Assembly: GCA_022510705.1 (NCBI GenBank)
Contig: JAFLSX010000011.1
Coordinates: 1-54,139, forward strand
Direction of reading: 5' to 3'
Origin: Lachnospiraceae bacterium
GTDB taxonomy: Bacteria > Bacillota > Clostridia > Lachnospirales > Lachnospiraceae
DNA: 54,139 nt
Under the pieces are notes generated by a model. It was given only the letters and a program-made list of their open reading frames with translations, had not been told where the DNA came from and ran no database searches. The position numbers and the translations under genes were made by a program. Each line of letters starts with the position of its first letter. Position 1 is the stretch's first letter. Positions 1 to 8,094 of the stretch are shown in pieces.

Positions 1-2
1 AA

Positions 3-404
3 CGATCATGTATAAACTGGGGATATGAATCAGAAAAATATAGACGAATTTTAAGCAACTTATTGATTACTGAGGAATTTATAAATTTTATTGTAGCACT
101 GGCAGAACTGGATGAAAGTTATCAAAAAAAGGAACAAGAAAAAGAGATTTTACCTCAACTATCTAACGAATTGGGAGAAGAATTATTTAACAAAGCAATG
201 GATTGGCGTGATGTAACTCCCGAAGATGAAGGAGCATCCGATTTAACAGTGGAGGAATGCAATGCAATAAAAAAAGTTAATTCGGCTTTGGACAAGTGTT
301 ATGAATTACATCATGAATTTATGCAAGAAATGAAGGTCCATCGATTTTCTGTGCAAGAAGTTCTCACTTTAATATTGAATGAAATGTATCCCATATTAAA
401 TTAA
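3..404 (+). CDS. Hypothetical protein, 5'-truncated by window edge (frame is open from position 3; the listed TTG start at 63 is probably internal)
   Basis: Frame reads RSCINWGYESEKYRRILSNLLITEEFINFIVALAELD... without stop from the first bases to the stop at 404; no family recognised. Confidence 0.55.
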   Translation, partial: RSCINWGYESEKYRRILSNLLITEEFINFIVALAELDESYQKKEQEKEILPQLSNELGEELFNKAMDWRDVTPEDEGASDLTVEECNAIKKVNSALDKCYELHHEFMQEMKVHRFSVQEVLTLILNEMYPILN

Positions 405-578
405 TTCTATTATTTCAAAGAAGATAATAAAGTTAGCTGCACCAGTTAACAGTAAAATGACCCTGATCTTTAGGATAATCTATTGTGCGGAACTATAGTC
501 GGCTAACTGCCGACTGCTAAAGGCTGAAATTATTTTTACGAAATAATATTGATACTATTTCATATATGCAGTCAAAAT

Positions 579-689
579 TTACACAGTTTTATTCTTTTTC
601 AAAAGATGAGCCTGTGGGATAATCGAGTCTATGTCCAATATAACCATCGAATTTGGTTGTCCTGCTTTCCCATCATAAAAAATGATCTC
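579..689 (-). mobile_element. Possible transposase N-terminal remnant (decayed)
   Basis: Minus-strand frame reads EIIFYDGKAGQPNSMVILDIDSIIPQAHLLKKNKTV*, similar in layout to IS1182-like transposase N-termini (M-V-x-L-D-x-L-V-P-x-D-H-L-L-R-K); no full gene. Confidence 0.3.
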
Positions 690-1020
690 CTAACATTGAT
701 ACAACAATTATAACATACAGAAGATCATAATTATTCAGTGAAAATTCTGATAGTATTTCAACAGTGGTCCGGTAAAATGTAAACCACCGATAGATTATCT
801 ACTTTGTCATTTTTGATAATATTCTGTATCCATAAATCTATCAAGGCTGTTACGCACCGCTGACACGGCAAGGTCTTGACAGTTTTCTGAATACATAATG
901 CATATTAATAAAGACGGAGTTAGGTACTTTGCAGATGTCGAAATCCTAATTTCCAATTTGCTGGAGAACTACTTCCCATAGGCAGGAATATTCACCTTAG
1001 TTGGTCAACAGCTATTTTTG

Positions 1021-2064
1021 TCACAGACTCACAATTCTATTTTCTATACCATCACCATAAGGATACGGCTCTTCTGTTTCGCAAACAAATAATTCAATTA
1101 ACTGACGGCAATTACGTACATATAGATCCGAAGCATCTAGAGACGCAAAATGAAACTGCTCATAAACATCATGAGCAATAGCTTGTAGCTCAGAATTATC
1201 ACCTGCTCTTTTTGAATCATAGTCTTTCACTTTTTCATAATAAATAGACATTTTACATAATGCAGAAAGTAAATATACATAAGTGCGATTTATGGATGCC
1301 TGAATTTCTATTGAATCTTTTTTACAACGTTCAAGCAAATTAAATGATTCCATAAAGTTAATACCCATCGAATAATAGTAATCAGCCAAATTTAAATCGC
1401 ATTTTGGTGTTCTTTTTAGCCTATACTTCCCATCAGTTACATCTTTGAGAACACTTTCATAAGTTTCTTCACCCCAAAGAGATATTCGTTCTGATTGTGG
1501 CATTTTTTTTAACCACTCTGCCTTAGATAAATATGCTTCTTCTCGTTCTGGAATTTCTGTGAGAAATGCTTTAACTAAATCATTTATTTTATGAACATCG
1601 CATTTTGATCCATAGTTTTCAATTTCCAGTAAATAATTAATTGCAAATTGGTAAGCTCGCCAATTCCAAGTATCCTGACGAGCACATAATTCGGCGAAGA
1701 AAGCATCACATTTTTCTTGTCGATTACATCTGCAGCCATAATTCAAATAGTCTGCAAGCAAATCAACAGAAGTTGCACTTTTCTTAATACCTAATTCCAA
1801 AATATCACACGCATAATCAAATGCCTCATTACGTGCCAATACTACAGCCACATTATGGTATGAACTTGAATTTCCAATTAGCGTTTTTGCTGTAAACACT
1901 TGTTCAATGAGAGTATCTATTTTACAATACTGTTCTATCGCATCTCCTGTCTCCTCTGTTTCTGCATATAGACGTTCAAGGACCTCTTGCACATGCTCCA
2001 AAGTCACTCGACCTGTTCTTTCACATATATTTATAATTGTTTCATAATTCATAGACATAATCAT
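1021..2064 (-). CDS. Alpha-helical (TPR-like) repeat protein, third gene of MPE-ATPase operon
   Basis: 347 aa, helix-rich with repeated ~35-aa A/Y/L spacing; ATGA overlap with the upstream ATPase gene. Confidence 0.6.
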   Translation of the reverse strand: MIMSMNYETIINICERTGRVTLEHVQEVLERLYAETEETGDAIEQYCKIDTLIEQVFTAKTLIGNSSSYHNVAVVLARNEAFDYACDILELGIKKSATSVDLLADYLNYGCRCNRQEKCDAFFAELCARQDTWNWRAYQFAINYLLEIENYGSKCDVHKINDLVKAFLTEIPEREEAYLSKAEWLKKMPQSERISLWGEETYESVLKDVTDGKYRLKRTPKCDLNLADYYYSMGINFMESFNLLERCKKDSIEIQASINRTYVYLLSALCKMSIYYEKVKDYDSKRAGDNSELQAIAHDVYEQFHFASLDASDLYVRNCRQLIELFVCETEEPYPYGDGIENRIVSL

Positions 2065-3737
2065 TCTCCTTTTTTAAATTTATTATCAGCTGTTACAGTG
2101 GATAGTTGTTCCTCTTGTTCCAATTCTGCAATTTTTCTATCAATTTCTTTTATTAAATCATCTGGCTTTTTTAAACCTGATAGTTCCATATGATTTTTAT
2201 ACGGAAGCACATCAAGAATTTCTTCAATGCGTTCTTTAGACTTGAAATCAATTTGTGACCACATTGGATAACTTCTTTTATCATATTGATATTTAAAATC
2301 ACTTGACACCAAGGGTATATTAAGCTCGTCAATATCTGCTAAGTTACTAATAAAAGGTTTAAAACGTCCATGTAATACAAGTACCTCTCCAACAATTTTA
2401 TCTAACCTCTGTAACTCTGAAGTCGTAAGTACTGGTTTCCCTTGTGAATTCCCCGCATCACCACAAAGTTCAGACATTTCATGTAAAAATTCAATTTCTC
2501 TGCTTGCTAGAAAAATCCAGTTTTCACAGTTAGCCATAATTGTATCAGCCTCTTCTCTATATCGAAGTTTAAGCTGATGCTTACTCTGTAGAAAAAGGTT
2601 AAACCTAATGTTTCGACTCCGAGCCGCTGTGATCATTGCCGGGAAATCATTAATGGTTGGAAGTGCTGAAAATTCATCCAAAATATAATTAACCCTACAG
2701 CCAATACTAACATCATTTTCAAAAGCCATCTGGGCCTTATATACAAGATACTCATAACTCTGTTTAATAAACAGCGAAACCAGTCCATGAAACCCAGTCT
2801 TTTCATCAGGAACAATCAGAAAGATTGCCGTTGGTTTCTCAGTTATCAAATCATAATCAATATCATTTTGTGCAAGCATATTCATCAATGAAGGCTGAAT
2901 TGCTAAGGAACGCATCTTCTGATCAAACACACTTAGAATTCCCGCCCTTGTATCATTAGCGGTTTCAATAGTACCAATAAGTGTAGAAGTTATAAAACTA
3001 TCCGTTTTTGCATATTGCCACCAAGGACTATTCTTATTTGTCAACCAGTTACCGGAGCACAAAGCATCGCGTAATCGCATAATATTACCAATATTAACAT
3101 TTTCTCTAGGTAAATTGTAATCTTTACAGTATTTAAAAAGTAATAAAATAAGTCCAAAGAAAAATGAACCCGCACTATTGTCCCAAAAGGGGTCTGAATT
3201 CGATTTATCTGTAGAAGTTAGATTGATAGCAATATCATTTGCAAATTCATAGGCCCTATCTATATCTCCATCCAAAAACCATTTATATGGTATTGCTAAT
3301 GGATTCCACGCAAAACCATATTGCGGATCTCTAAGATTAATTGCCACTACATTATAATTAAGGTTTTTTAAATACTTAGATGTTTTTGAAAACAATTCCG
3401 CTTTTGGATCAGAGATAATCATTGACTCACTCGCTGCACCTAAAGTAATAATTGTCGGCATTGCTAATAATCTACTTTTTTTTGACCCAGTTGAACCAAT
3501 AACCAGTGAATGCTTATCCGTGTGATCAACATATAGCAATTTATTAGCTTTATTATAGAAAAGTGGAATGCCACCTCTACCATTTCTATCATATGGTTGA
3601 GCATTCTTTGGTTGAATTAATTCAATAGTTACAGATTTACTATCATTAATTTTACAAGCACATAGTTCATTAGTAATCTCAGACTCTTTAGCAAAGCTAT
3701 TGGGATTATTCCTAACTTTCAACGCAACTTCTGACAT
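2061..3737 (-). CDS. VirD4/TraG-like type IV coupling protein family ATPase (soluble, no N-terminal TM helices)
   Basis: LVIGSTGSKKSRLLAMPTI (Walker A region), SMIISDPKAELFSKTSKYL, NPLAIPY, Walker B VNYILDEFSALP, FNLFLQSKHQL: signature blocks of VirD4/TraG ATPases. Confidence 0.85.
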   Translation of the reverse strand: MSEVALKVRNNPNSFAKESEITNELCACKINDSKSVTIELIQPKNAQPYDRNGRGGIPLFYNKANKLLYVDHTDKHSLVIGSTGSKKSRLLAMPTIITLGAASESMIISDPKAELFSKTSKYLKNLNYNVVAINLRDPQYGFAWNPLAIPYKWFLDGDIDRAYEFANDIAINLTSTDKSNSDPFWDNSAGSFFFGLILLLFKYCKDYNLPRENVNIGNIMRLRDALCSGNWLTNKNSPWWQYAKTDSFITSTLIGTIETANDTRAGILSVFDQKMRSLAIQPSLMNMLAQNDIDYDLITEKPTAIFLIVPDEKTGFHGLVSLFIKQSYEYLVYKAQMAFENDVSIGCRVNYILDEFSALPTINDFPAMITAARSRNIRFNLFLQSKHQLKLRYREEADTIMANCENWIFLASREIEFLHEMSELCGDAGNSQGKPVLTTSELQRLDKIVGEVLVLHGRFKPFISNLADIDELNIPLVSSDFKYQYDKRSYPMWSQIDFKSKERIEEILDVLPYKNHMELSGLKKPDDLIKEIDRKIAELEQEEQLSTVTADNKFKKGE

Positions 3738-3744
3738 ATAATTA

Positions 3745-5256
3745 CTACTCCTTTATCGTATGCCGTAGAGTATAAACTTCATTATTTTCGTGTTCCAAGT
3801 ACTCTTTTATAAAATATTCAAATAGATCACTATTAAATTCTGAGTTGTTAATGGCTAATGAAATAATACGTGACACTAATTGAGAAATGACTTCGAATTT
3901 CTCCTTTGAATTTAATAGTAATTCAGACGATACAATTTGTGTTATTTCTTTCTTTACTTGAATTGCAGCTTCTTGATTAAGCAATTCTCTATCGACTCTA
4001 TTGCCTGGATGAAACGATATTTCCCAATCACCTGATGTGTTTCCAGCTGTATTAGATAAGTCAATATAACTAAGACTTCCTCCTCGACGTATCTTAATAA
4101 CTCGGCAGTGATATGTTGATGTATCATTTGATAAAAGAGTTCCACAAATAGACCAAAACCCCATTTGCATATCATTTCCCAAATATATTGGTGTCTTTTT
4201 TTCGTGTACATGACCATTCATAATACATTTAGCACTATTATTTATTCGACTAACAAAATAGTCTTCTCCCTTATTAATAGGGTACTGCTCAGAAGGTGCT
4301 AACCAATTACATTTTTTTCTTCCTCCATGCCCATCATCTATATCAATCGTCATATGGGGATGATGAAATACCGCGCATATAATTGAATCTTCTGGACCTT
4401 TTTCTTTAGACTGCATTAACGCTTCATTTAGAAAATCTAATCCAACACGGAGCTTACCTTCATCTTCGTCATCTCGACAATCCCATGCAGAATTAAGTGC
4501 TATAAAATGAACCCACGGCCATTTATTGGGAATCTGTAAGCGCACAAGTTTCTGTGGATCTCCATCACAACATTTGACAATATAATCATGAAAATGCTTG
4601 GCACGTGGTTTATTAATATTAGTTCCAATTTGTTCGCGGCATACCTTACCTTCATCAAATTTACGGAGACTTTCAAGTTCATCCCCAATACTAATCCCTG
4701 CATTTTGTGGTCGAGGATATAACATACCTTTTCCATTTGCAATTGTACCTACTATTGTGTTTTTTCTGATAATATCATGGTTGCCAGGACACACCACAAT
4801 ACAATCTTCATCAATATTAAAACCCTTTTTTATAGCTTCATAAAAATCTTTTTTATACTGATCATATTCTCTTGTCGCACCTTTGAAAGCCAAATCACCA
4901 GAAACTACTACCACATCAGGTTTCCAATATCCAACTCTATTTTGATATGCACACAATTGAGATATCAAACAATCAATCATTTCTTTTCTCTGATGTTGAT
5001 ATAATTCCTTCTTGGAAGTAGAATCTCCTACGCCAAAGTGCAAATCTGAAATATGGAGAATATTAATTTCTTGAGACTCTTCTTTTGTTCCTTCTAAAAT
5101 AACCTTATCCATTATCGTTCCCATACTATTATATCCAGTCAATTCTAGCAATAGATGCAACTCACTGCATCTATTGTAATAGATTTTCTCATACTTCCAG
5201 TATCTTATATTCCGTCTTGCTATGCGTAAGATCTTGTAAAGAAAATCTGCCAGCAT
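3745..5256 (-). CDS. Calcineurin-like metallophosphoesterase
   Basis: ISDLHFG, VVSGDLAFKG, CPGNHD, FHHPHM and MNGHVHEK motifs, all metal ligands present. Confidence 0.88.
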   Translation of the reverse strand: MLADFLYKILRIARRNIRYWKYEKIYYNRCSELHLLLELTGYNSMGTIMDKVILEGTKEESQEINILHISDLHFGVGDSTSKKELYQHQRKEMIDCLISQLCAYQNRVGYWKPDVVVVSGDLAFKGATREYDQYKKDFYEAIKKGFNIDEDCIVVCPGNHDIIRKNTIVGTIANGKGMLYPRPQNAGISIGDELESLRKFDEGKVCREQIGTNINKPRAKHFHDYIVKCCDGDPQKLVRLQIPNKWPWVHFIALNSAWDCRDDEDEGKLRVGLDFLNEALMQSKEKGPEDSIICAVFHHPHMTIDIDDGHGGRKKCNWLAPSEQYPINKGEDYFVSRINNSAKCIMNGHVHEKKTPIYLGNDMQMGFWSICGTLLSNDTSTYHCRVIKIRRGGSLSYIDLSNTAGNTSGDWEISFHPGNRVDRELLNQEAAIQVKKEITQIVSSELLLNSKEKFEVISQLVSRIISLAINNSEFNSDLFEYFIKEYLEHENNEVYTLRHTIKE

Positions 5257-5269
5257 ATAAAATCACCAT
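5189..5269 (-). CDS. Candidate 26-aa upstream ORF overlapping the phosphoesterase start
   Basis: MVILYAGRFSLQDLTHSKTEYKILEV*; preceded by AAGGAGG 6 nt before its ATG, whereas the phosphoesterase ATG at 5256 is 19 nt from that SD and out of frame. Confidence 0.3.
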   Translation of the reverse strand: MVILYAGRFSLQDLTHSKTEYKILEV

Positions 5270-5434
5270 ATGGGTCCTCCTTAACTATAATTTAATTACA
5301 TGAGCATTTAACAGTACATAACGTAGTAATGATATCATATTACATTAAGTAAATCCTTACATTTTTCTTACATATCACCATAAATCGACAAAAATTTTGT
5401 TAATTATATTTTTTATAATTATCCCACAAAAAAT

Positions 5435-5459
5435 CAGCGGCTAAAACTTAGCCGCTGAC
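5435..5459 (-). terminator. Rho-independent terminator
   Basis: Perfect 11-bp inverted repeat TCAGCGGCTAA-AAC-TTAGCCGCTGA followed by T6 on the minus strand; downstream of the rlmD-like gene. Confidence 0.75.
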
Positions 5460-5651
5460 CGCTCTCCACTTAAAGGTAAAGAATCCCTTTTACTATTACA
5501 ATGTATAAACCAATAAAATATATCAAATACCCTTATTTCATAATAAGACTCCTACAAAATCTCTCAGTTAATAGGATATTATATACTATTGTCAATCTTT
5601 AGTCTCTGTAGTCTATCTAGAGTCTCAACCACCCTCCCTACAATGCCCAAC

Positions 5652-7145
5652 CTATCGTTTAACCAAAAGTGCCGTACACTCACAATGCACTGTATGCCCG
5701 AACTGGTCCACCGGCCGCACCTTTTTTAACTCATACCCACCGTCACACAACACCCTCAAATCCCTTGCCAAGGTAGCAGAATCGCAGCTCACATAGACAA
5801 TACGAGACGGAGCCATTTTTAGCATGGTGGAGAGGCATTTCTCGTCGCAGCCCTTGCGGGGAGGATCCACTACAATTACGTCCGGATACAGCATGTCAGC
5901 AGTCAAAGCCGGCAGACTTTCAAAAATTCCGGCAGATTCGGCTTTGCCTTTATGCCGCTCATAGAATTCAGGCAGCACTTCCTCCGCTTTTCCCACAAAA
6001 AACTCGGCATTGGAAATGCCGTTGCGGGCAGCGTTGGCTTTGGCGTCCTCTATGGCCTGGGGAATGATTTCCACGCCGTAGACCTGCTTGGCTTTGGCTG
6101 CCAGGAAAAGAGAAATGGTGCCGATGCCGCAGTACAGATCCCAAACGGTTTCTTTCCCGGTCAGTCCCGCATACTGCAGGGCCAGACTGTAGAGCTTCTC
6201 CGTCTGGAGGGGATTGACCTGATAAAAGGACAGGGGAGAAATCGCAAACTCCAGCTTATCTCCTGTAAAATCCATATCCGGCTTTTGCATATTCCGAACC
6301 CGGATACTGTCCCGAATAGTGTCACTACCCCAAATGGTATGTGTCTCTTTTCCCAAAATCACATTGGTATTTTCGGTATTGATATTTATCGACACACTTG
6401 TCATATTTTGTATTTTGGATAATCTCTCCAGCAGAATCTCCTGATGGGGCAGGTACTGAACCGTACCTGCTTTGCCCCGGTAATTTAACACCAGACACAC
6501 CATAATCTCCCCACTGGCAAAGCCGGTGCGGATCAGGATATGGCGGATGAGCCCCTTGCCGCTTTCTTCCTCATAGGGCGCTACATGAAATTCCCGCATA
6601 TAGTTAAGAATAGTATCCAGAATTTCCTTATTCTCTTTTCTGCCCAAGAAGCACTCCGTATTGGCAATAATGGAATGGGTTCGGCCCGCATAAAACCCGG
6701 CTATGGGATTTCCCTCCTTATCCCGCCCCACAGGGTACTGAGCCTTGTTCCGATAGTGAAACGGTTCCTCCATTCCTACAATGGGTTCCATGACGCTGTC
6801 AATTTCCGCTTCCGAAAAGCCGCCGATGCGCAGCAGATGATTCTTAACCTTGTCCTGCTTAAATGCAAGCTGTTTCTCATAATGAAGCGCCTGAAGCTGG
6901 CAGCCGCCGCACTGTCTGTGACTTTTACAGCGGGGCTGCACACGAAAAGGAGAAGGCGTTATCACCTTCTCTAATTTTGCATAGGCATAGTTCTTTTTAC
7001 TTTTCATGATTTTGGCTTCGACGATATCACCGATCACGGCATCCTTAATAAAGAGGATGAAGCCTTCCAGCTTGCCGATTCCTTCTCCTTCGGTACCGAT
7101 ATCCGTGATTTCCACCGTCACCCGGTCATTCTTTTTCCATTCCAT
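5652..7145 (-). CDS. rlmD: 23S rRNA (uracil-C5)-methyltransferase RlmD/RumA family
   Basis: TRAM domain N-terminus, C-x5-CGGCQLQ Fe-S cysteines, WDLYCGIGTISLFLA, VVDPPRKGCD, YVSCDSATLARDL. Confidence 0.9.
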   Translation of the reverse strand: MEWKKNDRVTVEITDIGTEGEGIGKLEGFILFIKDAVIGDIVEAKIMKSKKNYAYAKLEKVITPSPFRVQPRCKSHRQCGGCQLQALHYEKQLAFKQDKVKNHLLRIGGFSEAEIDSVMEPIVGMEEPFHYRNKAQYPVGRDKEGNPIAGFYAGRTHSIIANTECFLGRKENKEILDTILNYMREFHVAPYEEESGKGLIRHILIRTGFASGEIMVCLVLNYRGKAGTVQYLPHQEILLERLSKIQNMTSVSININTENTNVILGKETHTIWGSDTIRDSIRVRNMQKPDMDFTGDKLEFAISPLSFYQVNPLQTEKLYSLALQYAGLTGKETVWDLYCGIGTISLFLAAKAKQVYGVEIIPQAIEDAKANAARNGISNAEFFVGKAEEVLPEFYERHKGKAESAGIFESLPALTADMLYPDVIVVDPPRKGCDEKCLSTMLKMAPSRIVYVSCDSATLARDLRVLCDGGYELKKVRPVDQFGHTVHCECTALLVKR

Positions 7146-7149
7146 TATG

Positions 7150-8094
7150 TTACTCCAACCTCGTACCCCTTAAATTGGATTCAAATACCCGGTTATAGCC
7201 CAGCCAGCCATTATCCGTTGTACTGCCGAAGATTTCATTCATCATTTCCAGTTTTGCATCCGTGTTATCCGCCATATTCAGGGCCACCGCCTCAAAGAGT
7301 GCGGGCTTCTTGGGCGAGCCGAATTCATACTCCCCGTGGTGGGTCAGAATACAGTGCTTTAATTCGGAAGCCAGCACCGGCGGAAAGCCGGAAATGGTGC
7401 TGATTTTCTCTCCTATCATTTCACAGCCCATCACAATATGCCCCAATAGCTGCCCGTCGTCCGTATAGTCATTTTCGGGGAACAGGGAAATTTCCTTTGT
7501 TTTCCCAATATCATGGAACATAGCGGCCGCTAACAGCAAATCTCTTTTTAAAAGGGGATAGGCACTGCATAAATAGTCGCAGAGCTTTGTCACGCTTAAG
7601 GTATGCTCCAACAGACCGCCCACAAAGCCATGGTGCATGGTCTTGGCTGCAGAGGATTGGCGGAAGCGTTTGATAAAAGCAGCATCCTCCACAAAGAATG
7701 CCTCTAACAGTTTCTTAAGGTAAACATTTTCTACGGAATTTACATATTGCAACAGTTCCGTATACATTTCATCTATATTCTTACTGCTGACGGGCAGATA
7801 GTCCGCAGGATTATATTCTTCTTCCCTACATGCACGCACACGCTTTACATTTACCTGTAAAGCGCCCAAAAAATTATTGACTTCTCCGTATACTTCTATA
7901 TAGTCCAGAGTGTCAAATTCCTCTATCCCCGCGCTGTTTGGTTCCCAGATCTTTGCATCTATGGTCCCGGTTTTATCCTGCAGGATGACATTCTCATAGG
8001 ACTTCCCGTTCTTTGTGACCGCCGACTGCTTATGCTTACAGAGGTAAATATCGGAAACTCTGTCACCTTCTTTAAAATCCTTAATATACTTCAT
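7150..8094 (-). CDS. yhaM: YhaM-like 3'-5' exoribonuclease (OB-fold + HD domain)
   Basis: N-terminal OB-fold, HGFVGGLLEHTLSV, AAAMFHDIGKTKE HD motif, HHGEYEFGSPKKP. Confidence 0.85.
   Translation of the reverse strand: MKYIKDFKEGDRVSDIYLCKHKQSAVTKNGKSYENVILQDKTGTIDAKIWEPNSAGIEEFDTLDYIEVYGEVNNFLGALQVNVKRVRACREEEYNPADYLPVSSKNIDEMYTELLQYVNSVENVYLKKLLEAFFVEDAAFIKRFRQSSAAKTMHHGFVGGLLEHTLSVTKLCDYLCSAYPLLKRDLLLAAAMFHDIGKTKEISLFPENDYTDDGQLLGHIVMGCEMIGEKISTISGFPPVLASELKHCILTHHGEYEFGSPKKPALFEAVALNMADNTDAKLEMMNEIFGSTTDNGWLGYNRVFESNLRGTRLE

Follow-up and report, generated by a model that had tools for sequence, protein, structure and literature searches.

The window analysed here is a stretch of 54,139 nucleotides from a Lachnospiraceae bacterium (assembly GCA_022510705.1, contig JAFLSX010000011.1, positions 1 to 54,139). 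Close to its left end lie three minus-strand genes that encode a calcineurin-type metallophosphoesterase (MPE), a soluble VirD4/TraG-like ATPase and a TPR-like helical-repeat protein:

3745..5256, minus strand: MPE gene, operon gene 1 (503 amino acids), likely effector
2061..3737, minus strand: soluble VirD4/TraG-like ATPase gene, operon gene 2 (558 amino acids)
1021..2064, minus strand (start may be 2058): TPR-like helical-repeat protein gene, operon gene 3 (347 amino acids), likely adaptor or sensor

The tight packing of these genes, described in an earlier note made from the DNA sequence, is confirmed by the open reading frames at 1021-2064, 2061-3737 and 3745-5256; the spacer between the MPE and ATPase genes is 7 nt long (3738-3744), however, and not 8 nt as given there. 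The 4-bp ATGA overlap that the note saw between the ATPase and repeat-protein genes is present in the sequence, yet the two genes may abut instead, because the distance from a Shine-Dalgarno-like GGAG suits an ATG at 2058, 6 nt past the overlap ATG, better, and because the homologous repeat protein from a second locus (L007, see below) begins at about the position equivalent to 2058.

Conservation of the gene trio

A scan of 85,462 genomes with a few exact peptide patterns yielded a single close relative. This 8.2-kb contig, L007, comes from a Clostridia metagenome-assembled genome of roe-deer caecum and carries the trio in identical order and with nearly equal spacing. Over the full alignments, the ATPases of the two loci are 57% identical, the repeat proteins 35% and the MPEs 32%, and the retention of gene order and active-site motifs at such divergence is not what chance would be expected to produce. 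Downstream of the L007 trio follow an AbiLi (257 bits)/AbiLii (54 bits) pair and then HicA/HicB-type genes. Neither a conjugation gene nor a PF03432 relaxase match was found on the L007 contig; homologues are not, as the earlier note had considered, always embedded in complete conjugative elements. The three genes are a real, conserved unit that is present outside conjugative elements.

The co-occurrence of the genes that the note had suggested scoring was observed in the window and in L007, where all three stand together, and the full trio was found nowhere else in the genomes searched. Phages contained only distant (<33%) VirD4-like matches to the ATPase, a scan of viral_contigs and a PDB sequence search with the profiles gave no match, and none of the curated PADLOC and NCBIfam systems matches the MPE-VirD4-TPR combination. 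The open-access literature held nothing on VirD4 together with a metallophosphoesterase or phosphoesterase and anti-phage activity, and the operon did not turn up there. The fold families of the components are known; their combination, an MPE with a soluble VirD4 and a TPR protein, appears from these comparisons to be new.

Properties of the three proteins

The ATPase exceeds the Pfam cut-offs for T4SS-DNA_transf (125.4 bits), TraG-D_C (77.8 bits) and TrwB_AAD_bind (48 bits), and the maximum of its hydropathy in a 19-residue frame before Walker A is 0.34, which together substantiate the earlier description of VirD4/TraG blocks without N-terminal transmembrane helices. The corresponding maxima in VirD4 proteins of integrative and conjugative elements (ICEs) from the window's genus range from 1.45 to 2.9. 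Its nucleotide-binding motifs are as follows:

3474..3497, minus strand: unusual Walker A GSTGSKKS (residues 81-88), in which Lys replaces the usual Gly of GK[ST]
2670..2687, minus strand: canonical Walker B YILDEF (residues 351-356)

Typical ICE VirD4 proteins of the same genus have GGSG[SA]GKT as their Walker A. Since one ICE-type sequence (L042) likewise lacks the Walker A glycine, the change is typical of the soluble clade described below and not unique to it. Against the NCBIfam model for CD1115 VirD4-like proteins (NF045973; cut-off 250), the ATPases of the window and of L007 reach 242.9 and 239.5 bits, a shortfall so close to the cut-off that it is weak evidence on its own; the soluble relatives L026, L030 and L068 exceed this cut-off, so that the model alone does not separate soluble from conjugative VirD4 proteins. 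The PADLOC HerA model gave 13.9 bits (E 0.0035), and no DUF87 match was found in Pfam. The ATPase is on the VirD4, not the HerA, branch of the FtsK/HerA superfamily.

The MPE matches Pfam Metallophos with 34.4 bits (cut-off 21.5), and all five metal-ligand motifs of this fold (DxH, GD, GNH, H, GHxH) are intact and conserved in the alignment:

5038..5046, minus strand: motif I, D-L-H (residues 71-73), kept in L007 and in two of three other aligned MPEs
4894..4899, minus strand: motif II, G-D (residues 120-121), from the alignment
4774..4785, minus strand: motif III, G-N-H-D (residues 158-161), from the alignment
4360..4365, minus strand: motif IV, H-H (residues 298-299), from the alignment
4204..4215, minus strand: motif V, G-H-V-H (residues 348-351), from the alignment

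Among anti-phage families, PADLOC PDC-S60 (8.5e-20, a partial match) and NCBIfam DS9_1 (68.2 bits; cut-off 420) and DS8 (60.2 bits; cut-off 790) were matched over the MPE core only. Signals for the nuclease SbcD were weak; the TIGR00619 model gave 19.6 bits (cut-off 77.65; E 6.5e-4), and further such signals came from phrog_100 and from SbcD/Mre11 chains among the PDB matches. MPE effectors of the predicted nucleotidyl-phosphodiesterase type were matched at least as well as the SbcD nucleases. AlphaFold modelled the MPE poorly (pLDDT 44.8), and the resulting fold matches SMPDL3A/B, Rv0805 and Mre11; as the model stands, these structural matches confirm the MPE fold only and select no subfamily, be it nuclease or nucleotide phosphodiesterase.

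Related MPE domains recur in the window's genus within other architectures. In L118 (G006; 2320-7527, 1735 amino acids), one is fused to a NACHT/STAND-like NTPase whose NACHT match falls just under, and whose NPHP3_N match lies above, the cut-off, while L117 (G081; 283-6389) encodes an MPE-GAAD fusion in a GASH/DO-GTPase/GAP1 system. Calcineurin-superfamily phosphoesterases are the commonest effector in GTPase-centred systems, for which they are predicted to be nucleotidyl phosphodiesterases (PMC7159879). Judged from these sequence relationships, the MPE looks like a recurrent, swappable type of effector and a predicted nucleotide cutter. The idea that the MPE is a fused version of the small genes upstream of other soluble VirD4-like ATPases was rejected, as hhalign revealed no relation.

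The repeat protein of the window stays under every Pfam cut-off; its L007 homologue passes that of TPR_14 (25.3 against 23.5 bits). Its AlphaFold model, which is of modest quality, consists entirely of helical hairpins and finds TPR proteins as its best PDB matches (best E ~1e-3). In 392 genomes of the order (host included), all five strong matches to a profile of this protein adjoin an ATPase of the type found here; in 300 genomes of the phylum the host alone was matched, and a search of plasmids gave no match. By this measure, the TPR protein family seems to be known only beside this ATPase sub-clade.

Partners of the ATPase clade and the rlmD site

In a maximum-likelihood tree, the ATPases of the window and L007 pair with 100/99 support. 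They belong to a clade (92/92) of 22 sequences, most of them soluble, from which the seven ICE sequences in the tree stand apart. Most members of this clade of soluble VirD4-like proteins have an unusual Walker A; L031 is an exception, with an N-terminal hydrophobic helix and the Walker A GSTGSGKT. A six-member sub-clade with the repeat protein comprises the MPE type (window and L007) and a second type, L025-L028 (G129, G139, G153 and G387, two of them in one genus), in which a gene of ~335 amino acids precedes the ATPase instead of the MPE. Tree support for the grouping of the two types is only 83/73, and it is favoured because the repeat protein is common to both.

The neighbours of other clade members point in a further direction. 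Genes for ubiquitin-like, ThiF/E1, JAB-like (a weak match, 14.9 bits and under the cut-off), transglutaminase and SPFH proteins follow the ATPase of L026, the annotated example of the second type. Clade ATPases directly adjoin ClpP peptidases in L033, L073, L074, L075, L076 and L028; the five of these peptidases that were tested match PF00574 with E values of 4e-55 to 4e-71, and the alignment shows that they have the catalytic Ser, His and Asp. In four congeners (L067-L070), the clade ATPase stands beside an Hsp70 gene and a partner of ~255 amino acids. Because clade members adjoin ClpP, ubiquitin-like/E1/JAB or Hsp70 genes, the substrate of the ATPase may be a protein, and this context suggests that the VirD4-like ring is able to serve protein substrates.

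Two sets of relatives deserve mention in their own right. The L025-L028 and L076 loci, whose domains were annotated mainly in L026, encode soluble VirD4-like ATPases (two each in G129 and G387), and their set of TPR, ClpP, ubiquitin-like, ThiF/E1, JAB-like, transglutaminase and SPFH proteins is possibly a bacterial ubiquitin/protease-like system; the ubiquitin-like proteins have no GG at their end. The nearest VirD4-like relative without an MPE or TPR protein, L066 (G041; 654 amino acids), has a 222-amino-acid partner upstream and is surrounded by relaxase, MobC-like, DUF4062 and helicase-fragment genes; this VirD4-like gene may belong to the cargo genes of a mobile element.

The trio of the window lies downstream of rlmD, in a block of deviating base composition, with a hairpin in between:

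1..5500, no strand: low-GC block, ~33% GC against ~47% to its right, an acquired island; the contig ends at base 1
5432..5460, minus strand: terminator-like hairpin between the upstream rlmD and the operon; 9 terminator-like sites were found against 3.7 expected

The GC content drops from about 0.47 to about 0.33 at 5.5 kb and the other end of the island lies beyond the contig; no att-like repeats were found around it beyond chance-like pairs. The stretch after rlmD is variable in congeners, which carry there GmrSD (directly after rlmD, G016, L115), an HsdS fragment (G021, L114), a Schlafen/AlbA protein (G014, L116), an AAA_14 PDC-S01 protein (G045, L107) or KilA-N (G002), a pattern in keeping with a variable site into which defence genes are at times inserted. 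Since the hairpin separates it from rlmD, the operon is suggested to be its own transcription unit. The start of the MPE gene is uncertain because a good Shine-Dalgarno sequence lies too far upstream of its ATG; ahead of the gene, a strong AGGAGG precedes an out-of-frame ATG that opens a frame of 26 codons. This frame behind the best ribosome site and a 12-bp inverted repeat near the MPE start, which together take up 5148-5177 and 5190-5280, are possibly a leader peptide or an operator. A plus-strand open frame of 133 amino acids at 3-404 converges with the operon, is cut by the contig end and matches no family.

Proposed function and relation to known systems

Drawing on this context, we see an about even chance that the trio is a stand-alone, horizontally acquired anti-phage or anti-element module with the MPE as its effector. 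This reading is based on the position of the L007 trio ahead of AbiL and HicAB genes, on the occupation of a variable, at times defence-bearing rlmD site by the low-GC island, on the recurrence of the MPE as an effector in congeners and its matches to the anti-phage MPEs of DS8, DS9 and PDC-S60, and on a host assembly without a relaxase match together with the conservation of all five metal-ligand motifs. Of the DNA-targeting or defence module proposed in the earlier note, the stand-alone unit has held up, lying in L007 beside a known defence system (AbiLi/AbiLii). The DNA-targeting part was not borne out: the ATPase is not HerA (13.9 bits), its clade has ClpP, ubiquitin-like/E1/JAB and Hsp70 neighbours, and the MPE matches effectors predicted to be nucleotidyl phosphodiesterases no less well than it matches SbcD nucleases.

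In such a module, the VirD4-like ATPase would assemble into a hexamer in the cytosol and bind or thread nucleic acid or protein of the invader, and the TPR protein would recognise or recruit the trigger and dock it on the ATPase ring. The ring would keep the MPE silent or direct it to its target; once triggered, the MPE would cut a phosphodiester in nucleic acid or in a signalling nucleotide; the invader would be blocked, or growth of the infected cell stopped. Several observations weigh against a role in defence. Just two loci are known to carry the full trio, the MPE matches the PADLOC and NCBIfam models only in part and scores far under the curated cut-offs of the latter, and ordinary genes instead of defence genes occupy the rlmD site in some congeners. 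Other members of the ATPase clade resemble protein-handling loci, and a housekeeping or stress role is conceivable.

Such loci would agree with a protein-handling module, in which the VirD4-like ring unfolds or translocates proteins brought to it by the TPR protein as adaptor. The target of the MPE would then be a signal, either a nucleotide or a phosphoprotein, within a pathway linked to stress or proteolysis that may or may not serve defence. Proteins are among the substrates that VirD4 passes in conjugation, and clade relatives stand beside ClpP (L033, L073-L076, L028), beside Hsp70 (L067-L070) and, in L025-L028, near ubiquitin-like, ThiF, JAB, transglutaminase and SPFH genes with the same TPR partner. 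We nevertheless judge this module rather unlikely, as the operons of the window and L007 contain no protease, chaperone or ubiquitin gene, their MPE resembles nucleotide/nuclease-type effectors, and the ClpP-linked ATPases branch deeper than the window's sub-clade. The protein-handling context of the clade in turn speaks against a DNA-processing nuclease-motor pair like HerA-NurA or SbcC-SbcD, with an Mre11-like MPE fed by a VirD4-like pump. VirD4 relatives pump DNA, as is generally known, and the MPE has its weak SbcD matches (TIGR00619, phrog_100, SbcD/Mre11 PDB chains), yet Rv0805-type and SMPDL3-type phosphodiesterases match equally well or better in the low-confidence model and the SbcD model stays far under its cut-off, which makes this pair improbable.

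We give very little credence to the main alternative in the earlier note, that the trio is a fragment of a conjugative element reaching past the contig end, or to a variant of it in which such an element carries the trio as cargo. The stop of the contig at base 1, the low GC content and the L066 gene of G041, which has a relaxase and a helicase fragment in its surroundings, would be compatible with it. However, the lack of a relaxase near the operon, correctly seen in the note, extends to the whole host assembly, in which no PF03432 match was found (84.7% complete; VirB4 was not searched) and the operon ATPase is the single CD1115-type match. The ATPase, without transmembrane helices and with its odd Walker A, is unlike the ICE VirD4 proteins of the same genus and falls into a clade separate from ICE coupling proteins, and L007 carries the trio without conjugation genes; the alternative is thus unsupported. 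Even inside an ICE, the operon would be cargo and not transfer apparatus.

Should the trio indeed be an anti-phage or anti-element module, soluble VirD4 would represent a new type of motor in effector-ATPase immunity. We propose tentatively, and with some doubt, that this VirD4 clade left conjugation and now serves modular stress or immunity systems as a general motor in the cytosol, with exchangeable MPE plus TPR, ClpP, Hsp70 or ubiquitin-like/E1/JAB partners; the trio would then be the variant with a nucleotide-acting effector, and the loci with ubiquitin-like and ClpP partners would be a bacterial counterpart of the ubiquitin-proteasome system. With ClpP, ubiquitin-like and TPR proteins as partners of coupling ATPases, cytosolic protein unfolding by a VirD4 ring becomes testable in small operons. 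Since some soluble members exceed the CD1115 cut-off, there are among the clostridial proteins labelled 'conjugal transfer protein' some that are probably not involved in conjugation.

Compared with known systems, the operon ATPase shares the core fold, Walker B and TraM-recognition region with VirD4/TraG/TrwB and the CD1115 family; unlike these, it lacks transmembrane helices, has the GSTGSKKS Walker A and is partnered by an MPE and a TPR protein, with no relaxase match in the host assembly and no mating genes in the operon. As in HerA-NurA, SIR2-HerA and DUF4297-HerA, an effector gene and a ring ATPase of the FtsK/HerA superfamily form a single operon; here, the ATPase is of the VirD4 branch, the likely effector is an MPE, and a TPR protein is added. 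With the GASH/DO-GTPase/GAP1 and NACHT/STAND systems, DS8/DS9_1 and PDC-S60, the operon has in common a calcineurin-type MPE, here a likely effector, beside an NTP-dependent regulator; unlike the GTPase and NACHT systems, it has a separate soluble VirD4-like ATPase and no GTPase, STAND or GAP1 gene, and the account of the GTPase-centred systems makes no mention of VirD4, TraG or ClpP (PMC7159879). Finally, it shares its ATPase sub-clade, TPR partner and relative gene order with the ubiquitin-like/E1/JAB loci L025-L028, which differ in having the ~335-amino-acid protein where the trio has its MPE, together with nearby genes for ubiquitin-like, E1, JAB, transglutaminase, SPFH, ClpP and a second VirD4-like protein.

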